Source: Candidatus Thiodiazotropha endoloripes
GTDB taxonomy: Bacteria > Pseudomonadota > Gammaproteobacteria > Chromatiales > Chromatiaceae
Direction: 5' to 3'
Assembly: GCA_001709035.1 (NCBI GenBank)
Contig: LVKA01000011.1
Span: 806,001 to 870,000 of the forward strand
DNA: 64,000 bases
Part shown: one piece after another, positions 54,662 to 58,230 of the stretch
Layout: every line of letters begins with the position of its first letter
How positions within the stretch are numbered: the stretch's first letter is position 1
Made by a program: the position numbers and the translations under genes
Notes under the pieces: model-generated
Told to the model about the DNA's origin: nothing
The model's input: the letters and a program-made list of their open reading frames with translations, nothing else
Databases searched by the model: none

Positions 54662-55725
54662 TGGTCATGGCCGGTGGCACCGGCGGGCACCTGTTTCCCG
54701 CACTGGCGGTTGCCCAGTGGCTGCAGAATCATAACTGCCGGATCACCTGGCTCGGCAGCAGTGGCGGCATGGAGAATCGCCTGATACCGGAGTATGGCTT
54801 TCCGATCCGCACCCTGGAGGTGAAGGGGTTGCGCGGTAGCGGACTGAAGCGTCGCATCATGGCGCCCTGGGTGGTCAGTCGCTCACTGCTGCAGGCCTAT
54901 CGCCTGCTGCGTCAGGTGCAACCCAATCTGGTACTGGGCATGGGTGGCTTCGTCACCGGGCCTGGCGGGGTTGCTGCCAGGCTGATGAAGATTCCGCTGG
55001 TGATTCAGGAGCAGAATGCCATCCCCGGTTTAACCAACCGGATTCTGGCCCGCTTCGCCAATAAAGTGTTCGAGGCCTTTCCCGGCAGTTTCGGTGCCGA
55101 GGCCCAGGCTGAGACAGTGGGTAATCCTGTGCGTCAGGAGATCGTCGATCTACTCCCACCGGAAGTCCGTTTCAGCCAGCGCAGCGGAGCGATTCGATTG
55201 CTTGTGCTGGGTGGATCTCTGGGTGCCCGGGCGCTCAATCAGACCCTGCCCGAGGCATTGGCTCTGCTCAGCCGGGAGGAGCGTCCTCTGGTCCGGCATC
55301 AGGCCGGTGAGAAGCTGCTGCAGGAGACCATCGAGTCCTATCGTCAGCAGGGTGTGGAGGCGGAGATCAAGGCGTTTGAGAAGGATATGGCGGAAGCCTA
55401 TGGCTGGGCCGATCTGGTGCTCTGCCGGGCGGGCGCCCTGACCGTCACCGAATTGGCCACGGCCGGCCTGGGATCGATTCTTGTGCCCTATCCTCATGCG
55501 GTGGATGACCATCAGACCCATAACGCACAGTTTCTGGTTGAGGCCGGTAGTGCACAGCTGGTACAGCAGACCGATCTCAATCCCACCGATCTGGCCGGCC
55601 GTTTGAAGGCCCTGTGTGCCAGTCGGGAGTCATTGTTGCAGATGGCCAAGGCGGCCCGTGAACAGTCCCGCGCCGATGCTGCGGCCAACCTGGGGCGCTT
55701 TTGCCTGGAGACCATTGGATCATGA
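54646..55725 (+). CDS. murG: UDP-GlcNAc:lipid I GlcNAc transferase MurG
   Basis: Peripheral membrane GT-B glycosyltransferase that turns lipid I into lipid II (359 aa). [17 protein letters not shown] at the start, [63 protein letters not shown] and [17 protein letters not shown]. The ATG at 54646 lies inside the ftsW 3' end. Confidence 0.97.
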
Positions 55726-57158
55726 ATGAGCAACTGCGAAGCCGCCACAATCCGAACAGCATGGGCCGCATGCGACGGATCCATTTTGTCGGCATCGGCG
55801 GTGCGGGCATGAGTGGTATCGCCGAGGTGATGATCAATCTGGGGTATCAGGTATCGGGTTCGGATCAGCGCGAGAGCCGGGTCACCGCGCGACTTGTGGC
55901 GCTGGGCGCCAAGGTCTATCTGGGGCATCAGGCTGAGCATGTCGAAGGTGTGGATGCGGTGGTCATCTCAAGTGCCGTGAAAGAGCAGAATCCGGAAGTG
56001 GTGGCCGCCCGCCAGGATCGGATTCCGGTGGTTCCAAGGGCCGAGATGCTGGCCGAGATCATGCGTTTCCAATATGGCATCGCGGTTGCGGGTACCCATG
56101 GGAAAACCACCACCACCAGTCTGGTGGCCAGTGTGTTGGCCGAGGCCGGGCTCGATCCGACTTTTGTGATCGGCGGACTGTTGAACAGTGCCGGCGCCAA
56201 TGCCCGTTTGGGTGAAGGTGAGTATCTGGTGGCTGAGGCGGATGAGAGTGATGCCTCGTTCCTCTATCTGCAGCCGATGCTGGCGGTTGTGACCAACATC
56301 GATGCGGACCACATGTCCACCTACGGGGGTGATTTCAACCGCCTGCGGGGCACCTTCCTGGAGTTTCTCCACCATCTGCCTTTCTATGGTCAGGCGGTGA
56401 TGTGCATCGATGATCCGGTGGTCATGGAAATGCTGCCGGAGGTGACCCGTCCGATCACGACTTACGGCTTCAGCTCTGATGCGGATGTGCAGGCAACCGA
56501 TGTCCACAGCGAAGGGCTGCAGACCCATTTCAGACTGCACGTCAAAGCCCAGCAGCTGAGCTTTGAAGTAACCCTGAATCTGCCGGGTCGACACAATGTG
56601 CTGAATGCCCTGGCCGCTGCCTGTGTGGCGCTTGAGCTCCACACAGATCCCCGTCACATCCAGTCTGCGCTGAAGAAGTTTGCCGGTATCGGCCGACGTT
56701 TTCAGACCCGTGGCGACTGCCAGATGGATGGTATGCATGTGATGTTGGTGGATGACTACGCCCACCACCCACGGGAGATACAAGCGACCCTGGAAGCGGT
56801 ACGTGACGGATGGCCGGAGCGGCGGCTGGTGGTCGCCTTTCAACCCCATCGCTATACCCGGACCCAGGAGCAGTTCGAGGATTTTGTTCAGGTACTTTCC
56901 AGATCGGATCTGTTGATCCTGACCGAGGTCTATGCGGCGGGAGAGGAGACAATTCAGGGTGCCACCGGACGTGATCTGAGTCGGGCGATCCGGGTGCGCG
57001 GCCAGGTCGATCCGATCTTCATGGAGCCCGTGACTGAGTTGCCTGAGCTGTTGCGCGGGCTGCTTCAGGATGGGGATATCGTGCTGACAATCGGGGCAGG
57101 CAGTATCGGCGCAATTGCGGCGGAATTGCCCACACAACTATGTGAGGAGGCCCAGTGA
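55722..57158 (+). CDS. murC: UDP-MurNAc:L-alanine ligase MurC
   Basis: First Mur ligase, adding L-Ala to UDP-MurNAc (478 aa). [21 protein letters not shown] site [56 protein letters not shown] and [10 protein letters not shown]. Start at MNEQLRSRH (55722) in an ATGA overlap with murG. Its TGA shares a base with the start of the 58-codon ORF that precedes murB. Confidence 0.97.
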
Positions 57159-57334
57159 TGGCGCAGATCTTTGATATGAGACGGTTGCATCAAGGGTGCG
57201 GAGAGTCGTTGCAGAGCGAGTTGCTTGTCATGGCAAAAGCGGGCAGGCAACAGAGCTCAATCAACCGGGAAGCGCAGAAGCAGCGCTTGAAGAGTGCTCA
57301 TCAGATGCAGAAACGGGAGAGGTTCTGGGGATGA
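57158..57334 (+). CDS. Unrecognised 58-aa gene between murC and murB
   Basis: A hidden small ORF filling the whole murC-murB gap. ATG at 57158 overlaps the murC stop (TGATG) and GAGGAGG lies 7 nt upstream, among the strongest ribosome binding sites in the cluster; its TGA (57332-57334) overlaps the murB ATG at 57331 (ATGA). The protein is soluble and strongly basic, starting [20 protein letters not shown] and ending HQMQKRERFWG, mostly helical with Gln/Arg/Lys and a single Cys. I know no dcw gene like it. It may be a small division or cell-wall factor or mainly a coupling leader for murB. Confidence 0.65.
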   Translation: MAQIFDMRRLHQGCGESLQSELLVMAKAGRQQSSINREAQKQRLKSAHQMQKRERFWG

Positions 57335-58230
57335 TGCCGGTGATGAAGTCACAACCACTACGCGGTGAGATGCGATTGGACGAACCTCTGTCCAAGCATA
57401 CCACCTGGCGTGTGGGTGGACCGGCGAAACACTTTTATCGGCCGGCTGACCGGGATGATCTGGTGAATTTTCTGAGTCAGCTGGATGAAGAGGAACCACT
57501 CTTCTGGCTCGGGCTGGGGAGCAATCTACTGGTCAGGGATGGCGGTTTCGACGGTACCGTGATCGCCACTCAGGGCTCCTTGAAGGATTGTACTCTGGTG
57601 GATGATCAGCGGATCTATGCCGAGGCCGGTGTCTCCTGTGCGAAGGTTGCCAGAGTCGCTGCCAGAGCCGGACGCTGCGGAGTTGAATTTCTGGCCGGTA
57701 TTCCCGGCACCCTGGGGGGCGCCCTGGCGATGAATGCGGGTGCTTTCGGTGGCGAAACCTGGCAGCGGGTGAAGCAGGTCGAGACCATCGATCGTTACGG
57801 TGTGGTTCGGCAAAGAGAGACCACCGACTTCCAGGTTGGTTATCGCCATGTGAGCAGACCCGAAGGTGAGTGGTTTCTCTCCGCGCAACTCTCCCTCTTG
57901 GCAGGGGATGCGGAGGCGGCCCAGCAGAAGATCAAAGCACTGCTGGCAAAACGTTCGGCCACCCAGCCCACTACCCAGCCCAGCTGTGGTTCGGTGTTCC
58001 GCAATCCGCCTGGAGACCATGCAGCGAGGTTGATCGAGTCTATTGGATTGAAAGGCCGTCAGTTGGGTGGTGCCCAGGTGTCGGAAAAGCATGCCAATTT
58101 CATCGTCAATACGGGAGACGCCACCGCCGCGGATATCGAAACTTTGATCGAGACGGTGCAGCGCGAAGTGAAAGCGGCGACCGGGATCGATCTGATCACT
58201 GAAGTCCACCGCTTAGGAGGGCCGAAGTAG
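57331..58230 (+). CDS. murB: UDP-N-acetylenolpyruvoylglucosamine reductase MurB
   Basis: FAD enzyme making UDP-MurNAc (299 aa). FAD/substrate motifs: LSKHTTWRVGGPAKHF, LGLGSNLLVRDGGFDGTVI, AGIPGTLGGALAMNAGAFGG, QVGYRHVSRPEG and QPSCGSVFRNP (the Ser of GSVFRNP is the proton donor), ending LIESIGLKGRQLGGAQVSEKHANFIVN. The missing third-domain insertion makes it type II-like. ATG at 57331 has GGGAGAGG upstream; a longer in-frame reading from GTG 57196 is rejected. It sits between murC and ddlB, unlike in E. coli where murB is elsewhere. Confidence 0.95.
   Translation: MMPVMKSQPLRGEMRLDEPLSKHTTWRVGGPAKHFYRPADRDDLVNFLSQLDEEEPLFWLGLGSNLLVRDGGFDGTVIATQGSLKDCTLVDDQRIYAEAGVSCAKVARVAARAGRCGVEFLAGIPGTLGGALAMNAGAFGGETWQRVKQVETIDRYGVVRQRETTDFQVGYRHVSRPEGEWFLSAQLSLLAGDAEAAQQKIKALLAKRSATQPTTQPSCGSVFRNPPGDHAARLIESIGLKGRQLGGAQVSEKHANFIVNTGDATAADIETLIETVQREVKAATGIDLITEVHRLGGPK

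Follow-up and report, generated by a model that had tools for sequence, protein, structure and literature searches.

The described gene order of the dcw cluster around murC and murB is murG-murC-murB-ddlB-ftsQ. In Firmicutes, the small protein ReoM reportedly regulates a Mur enzyme by acting on the stability of MurA. Regulatory leader peptides are exemplified by TnaC, ErmCL and SpeFL, and motif I of the SAM-dependent methyltransferases reads LHLGCG... We examined a window of 64,000 nucleotides (the whole stretch of DNA that was analysed) from Candidatus Thiodiazotropha endoloripes, whose ORF list gives the dcw order murE-murF-mraY-murD-ftsW-murG-murC-murB-ddlB-ftsQ-ftsA-ftsZ, in which family models confirm murC and murB, the other names being assigned by eye from the translations. 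An additional small gene lies between murC and murB in this window.

Layout and coding signal at the murC-murB junction

The murC gene (UDP-N-acetylmuramate--L-alanine ligase; TIGR01082, E 4.6e-173) occupies 55722..57158 and murB (UDP-N-acetylmuramate dehydrogenase; PRK13905, E 3.2e-115) occupies 57331..58230, both on the + strand. As a preliminary description had claimed, the 172-bp gap between them (57159-57330) is filled by a single ORF, and all that was said there of its coordinates, overlaps and ribosome binding site holds. The ORF (57158..57334, + strand) consists of 58 codons and a TGA, and encodes a product of 58 aa. Its ATG (57158-57160) overlaps the TGA stop of the upstream coupling partner murC (57156-57158) as TGATG, and is preceded, 7 nt upstream, by the Shine-Dalgarno sequence GAGGAGG (57144..57150, + strand) within the 3' end of murC. 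At the other end, the TGA stop (57332-57334) overlaps the ATG of the downstream coupling partner murB at 57331 (ATGA), and a Shine-Dalgarno-like sequence for murB, GGGAGAGG, is found within the 3' end of the small gene (57315..57322, + strand). The positions of these elements show a layout that would let ribosomes run from murC through the small gene into murB. A tandem ATGATG opens murB (57331-57336), so that its true start is 57331 or 57334; both overlap the small-gene stop.

Similar joints were seen in relatives. At the 22 junctions of the genus, murC stop and ORF start are at most 3 nt apart; at the other end, the ORF terminates either in overlap with the projected start of murB or 3 nt short of it. 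All 106 rows kept have a possible start codon no more than 12 nt from the murC stop; the lower bound of this distance is built in, as the scan began 12 nt before that stop. An upstream Shine-Dalgarno-like sequence was present in 52 of 77 distinct ORFs, and 40 of the 77 contained one positioned for murB inside the ORF end, as compared with 9.1% of 5335 control tail windows; these counts omit L101, L104, L105, L108 and the ORFs with a murB start that is unknown or downstream of their stop. With overlapping or abutting start and stop and a ribosome binding site, in the window as well as in relatives, the ORF has the features of a translationally coupled gene. The final six residues of the peptides were enriched in R, E and G. 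The murB Shine-Dalgarno-like DNA embedded there suggests that the tail end has two roles and that the basic, Arg-rich character of the product is partly a nucleic-acid constraint. The 82 distinct peptides described below have a median pI of 10.8, and the earlier characterization of the product as basic and Gln/Arg-rich is qualified in that the Arg/Glu-rich end stems in part from the embedded site.

In the clade of the window (6 genomes), the dN/dS of the whole ORF was 0.12 in frame as compared with 2.0 and 1.6 in the shifted frames, and the variable sites at the three codon positions numbered 9, 8 and 27. Codons 1-24 gave a dN/dS of 0.04 and codons 25-58 of 0.24; the values for murC and murB, from 5 of the 6 genomes, were 0.06 and 0.10, respectively. 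Among the 22 genus genomes, third codon bases vary while most core residues are unchanged. Other groups, with fewer changes, gave core values of 0.13 (B), 0.26 (C), 0.04 (E), 0.95 (F, 4 changes) and 0.10 (G), and tail values of 0.87 (B, 16 changes), 0.40 (C), 0.32 (E), 0.54 (F) and 0.31 (G), and group D showed two changes only, both nonsynonymous and both in the tail. The signal is faint in the core of F and the tail of B, which counts against the coding reading in these small groups. The shifted frames were mostly closed in relatives, +1 being open in 1 and +2 in 13 of 110 rows. Repeated loci (L025-L047 repeat earlier loci) are counted in the peptide and selection statistics unless these are given as distinct. 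These comparisons show that purifying selection acts on the small ORF as a protein-coding sequence, in its own frame, and in the window clade with about the same strength as on murB; judged by its evolution, it is a genuine small-protein gene inside the dcw operon.

In the window, the murB frame is open from 57196 (57196-58230), and an N-terminal extension of MurB could therefore be taken for the true frame; the ORF could otherwise have arisen by chance or be a mere spacer. We give practically no credence to this group of explanations. The chance ORF and the MurB extension are refuted by the dN/dS above 1 in the shifted frames, by the closure of those frames in most relatives, and by the conservation of the motif across families. 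An RNA element, such as an alternative mRNA structure that would hide the murB start, also seems improbable: no Rfam family matched at the junction, and the fold of the junction RNA was not unusual (z -1.68, with 12 of 200 shuffles folding as well).

Distribution and history of the family

The product was matched in all 22 same-genus genomes among the 56 relatives searched, each time at the murC-murB junction. A profile built from the genus proteins and one outsider (A1) gave a long tail of weak matches in 195 genomes of the order; 57 of 60 weak-match regions examined contained murC with a motif ORF directly after it. Both were present at 110 of the 114 loci L001-L114, with murC missing from L023, L107, L111 and L112. 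One genome, G187, showed two similar junction copies (L063, L070) on two contigs of a draft assembly, perhaps from mixed strains.

When 370 class-wide genomes were searched with the core, 34 matched at E <= 0.05. Seventeen of the 30 loci returned lay at the murC-murB junction, as did 16 of the 17 with E <= 0.0035, and 14 genomes from 8 other families carry the core at this junction. Seven of the 8 genomes in the order of G490 gave a match at E <= 0.01, each with a junction copy (the motifs of G893 and G894 being altered), G892 being the sole genome that did not match at this threshold. A draw of 348 genomes from the phylum gave a single match at E <= 0.002, the window's own genome, which suggests that the family is confined to part of the class. 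Among contigs of named genomes, 70 stretches matched and 20 loci were confirmed, 11 from Sedimenticola, 3 from Candidatus Thiodiazotropha, 2 from lucinid-clam symbionts and 4 from other MAGs. The ORF is flanked by murC and murB at 19 of these, the 20th running off a contig edge, and the named carrier strains include Sedimenticola selenatireducens DSM 17993 and BK-1, and S. hydrogenitrophicus SB48 and SN1189. These matches define a new and well-conserved family of small proteins, coupled on both sides within the dcw cluster and found in part of the class to which the window belongs, which the named relatives identify as Gammaproteobacteria.

A census of the family was based on the murC 3' ends of 187 of its 197 genomes, with 188 loci classified by motif pattern; of the ten genomes outside it, seven gave no murC match and G067, G129 and G188 only weak matches away from murC. 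A motif ORF lies between murC and murB in 120 of the 187, some with changed motifs, 112 being recognized by pattern and eight (G098, G092, G095, G088, G216, G026, G159 and G196), which the pattern had classed as gaps, by eye. Among these eight, GCGE is replaced by DCGE in G098, G092 and G095 and by GCGG in G026, G159 and G196, and the carrier status of G088, whose motif was read as far as GCG, is backed by a separate match. The 120 include G104, with a degenerate motif (GCVE). In 51 of the 187 genomes murC abuts murB (within ~40 nt) and there is no ORF, and the rest have a gap without the motif (7), ddlB next without the ORF (6), or no next gene found in the locus (3).

The absence of the ORF from the 51 genomes in which murC abuts murB indicates that it is dispensable. 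On a FastTree phylogeny of MurC plus MurB with long branches flagged (166 rows, of which 103 with the ORF, 49 without and 14 other), presence against absence requires at least 18 changes, a count of with versus without only, in which the carriers found by eye were not entered as carriers. The labels were clustered on the tree: presence took 27 changes against a shuffled mean of 50.7 and absence 20 against 42.7, and none of 500 shuffles was as low. We infer the root, hence the direction of change, and with it an ancestral presence followed by many scattered losses, a history favored since one motif would hardly have been gained several times over at one junction. The preliminary description had regarded murB starting directly after murC in related species as evidence against a gene; this arrangement does occur, and on the tree it looks like scattered loss of a real one. 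Its reading of the ORF as a coding gene coupled to both neighbors is supported by amino-acid conservation in the genus, the family and beyond, and by the in-frame dN/dS.

We also looked for residues of MurC and MurB that track the presence of the gene. Among the associations listed there were many raw ones, phylogenetically independent pairs were few or mixed, the best-looking residue, a Val of MurB, was weak, and none was convincing after allowing for phylogeny. Columns at the alignment start run against the gene because many gene-bearing loci are cut there.

The GCGE motif and possible modes of action

In the alignments, the conserved part of the protein is an N-terminal GCGE motif, which is absent from the preliminary description. 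The core of the window protein comprises residues 8-18 (R-R-L-H-Q-G-C-G-E-S-L; 57179..57211, + strand; alignments A1, A2 and A3), and is followed by a variable basic tail, residues 19-58 (57212..57331, + strand), which is probably disordered, as judged by the peptide statistics. The shared core reads R-L-H-[MQ]-G-C-G-E-[SP]-L; E and the final L are also invariant in a 64-row core alignment, whose rows were chosen by the pattern GCG[ED]. The 82 distinct peptides (relatives and window, omitting L101, L104, L105 and L108) are 49-79 aa long, with a median of 58 aa and a median of one Cys each; GCG stands at median residue 13, and the tail, counted from 12 residues past GCG, has 25-43 residues. No hydrophobic or membrane segment was found in the 82 peptides (top 15-residue mean hydropathy 1.35, median 0.56), and the absence of such a segment before the Cys or elsewhere speaks against a lipoprotein or membrane small protein. 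AlphaFold models of 21 sequences (mean pLDDT 60.5, pTM 0.27) showed no confident fold, and none for the motif, with one long low-confidence helix after it. These models suggest that the small protein, if it folds at all, probably does so only on a partner.

Searches of Pfam and NCBIfam gave no significant match to the window protein, and those of Pfam, NCBIfam, PHROG and PDB gave none to 52 family members, the scattered hits being at chance level (best E 0.025). A Pfam-A scan of the 52 members at E up to 5, in which HMMER filters drop most matches above 0.1, returned four single-member chance hits, none of them a methyltransferase. In the papers searched, none of four motif strings was met, and literature searches for small proteins linked to murC or murB turned up nothing relevant among the titles and abstract openings listed. 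LHMGCGE resembles methyltransferase motifs locally, and the ORF might thus be a relic of a larger protein, for example of motif I (LHxGCG) of a SAM-dependent methyltransferase, kept by chance. This seems very improbable to us, given that no methyltransferase appears among the chance-level Pfam and NCBIfam hits, that no PDB entry matched, that the core is so strongly constrained in the window clade (dN/dS 0.04, as above), and that all 82 distinct peptides are short.

The Cys is present in all rows of A1-A3 and in 111 of 111 motif-selected genomes, a set for which GCG was required, so that the invariance of G-C-G there, as in the pattern-based census, is partly due to selection of the rows. Lying between two Gly residues, the Cys might be the working part of the protein, adjusting peptidoglycan precursor synthesis by reacting with a sulfur, redox or metal signal; this would be a sharper version of the accessory-protein reading given below. 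Sedimenticola and Thiodiazotropha, sulfur-cycling bacteria, account for 14 of the 20 named loci, in line with such a sensor. However, the adjacent His varies (H in 76 of 111 genomes), and the median of one Cys per peptide argues against a general disulfide or CxxC pair; we consider such a sensor improbable.

Another possibility is a cis-acting leader peptide, in which RLHMGCGE pauses or is sensed in the ribosome and tunes the coupled murB, the free peptide being inert. The ORF sits directly before murB with a stop-start overlap, its residues are kept while wobble bases change, and its tail is free to vary, as such a leader would predict. However, the motif lies near the N-terminus with the variable tail after it, although an early pause may occur; the RNA of the region, as noted above, is neither unusually structured nor matched in Rfam; and the genomes without the ORF mostly have murB abutting murC (51 of 67). 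As compared with arrest peptides, the conserved residues are not C-terminal and the ORF is not always directly upstream of the gene that it would regulate. In G183 it is kept between murC and ddlB, and G895 carries, in addition to its junction copy (L145), a second, 53-codon ORF containing RVHMGCGESL on the minus strand (L169:9361-9522; MHVKTRRVHMGCGESLIS...). This second copy lies away from the mur genes, ~730 nt downstream of a gene that by eye is dsrC-like, and has its own ribosome binding site, GGGAGGG. Beyond it, the first long ORF runs convergently; on the strand of the copy, two short mechanical ORFs (82 and 43 codons), unsupported, overlap or follow it, and no recognized same-strand gene is coupled downstream. 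Since a leader serving murB would not be expected elsewhere, this copy away from the mur genes, found in one genome distant from the window, speaks for action of the protein in trans rather than for a leader of murB, as does the retention of the ORF in G183, where no native-type murB was matched (see below).

Genomes with altered murB loci were also considered. Eight genomes have ddlB as the next recognized gene and no intact native-type murB after murC; six of the eight lack the ORF, as the leader peptide would also predict, and the two that keep it have unusual tails. This loss fits a tie of the ORF to murB, and does not tell cis from trans. The motif ORF is kept before a truncated murB in G178, where only a C-terminal murB fragment (~80 codons) was matched between the motif ORF and ddlB (L171). 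No native-type MurB was matched at E <= 1e-10 in G183 (rated 100% complete), nor in G108, G068, G137 and G176 (99-100% complete, as is G183), and only weak native-type matches were seen in G086 and G072; perhaps murB has been replaced in such genomes by a distant type elsewhere. In G064, a native-type murB (G064:C10:116746-117612; L195) is found ~3 kb downstream, separated from murC by other sequence, and no motif ORF was seen. Taken together, we weigh action in trans clearly above action in cis, and regard the leader peptide as unlikely, without being far-fetched.

The explanation that we prefer, with somewhat better than even confidence, is a trans-acting small accessory protein, coupled with murC and murB, whose GCGE element docks on a partner. 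Judged by its sequence features, this is probably an accessory protein, small and basic, with Gly-Cys-Gly-Glu as its conserved element, acting in or next to cell-wall building. The partner would most likely be MurB or MurC from the same message, which is a guess, as is any role for the Cys. The protein would fold upon binding the partner while its basic tail stays flexible, and translational coupling would match its level to those of MurC and MurB. A more specific version, which we put forward as a long shot, is an ancestral cysteine-based controller of UDP-MurNAc synthesis, in which GCGE would bind MurB or MurC and report a redox or sulfur signal, and which would have been lost where unneeded. 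If this were true, cell-wall precursor supply would be tied to sulfur metabolism in a large, largely sulfur-metabolizing lineage.

Comparison with known systems

The leader peptides TnaC, ErmCL and SpeFL resemble the small gene in being short ORFs directly upstream of a coupled gene with few invariant residues. In contrast to these, the conserved residues of the small gene are N-terminal and not at the end, a free-standing copy exists, and no known RNA family or unusual fold was found. With motif I of the SAM-dependent methyltransferases, the small protein shares the local string LHxGCGE; unlike these enzymes, it matches no methyltransferase model and no PDB entry, and is far too short for their fold. 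Like ReoM, the product would be a small soluble protein acting on an early step of peptidoglycan synthesis. In contrast to ReoM, the link to a Mur enzyme is here one of gene position only; the family matched no model or PDB entry, that of ReoM included if it is among those searched.

Few bacterial operons have been studied as thoroughly as dcw, and the extra family fixed at this junction is under murB-like selection and lies outside every library searched. If the gene is translated, it would offer a ready genetic handle, as many relatives have its slot either occupied or cleanly vacant and the carriers include several named strains, which makes a role in cell-wall synthesis directly testable. 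As compared with the described dcw cluster, the small product is covered by no model searched and its slot is empty in 51 of 187 relatives; the window agrees with the order murG-murC-murB-ddlB-ftsQ, and the small gene is joined to its neighbors by the same kind of stop-start overlaps.
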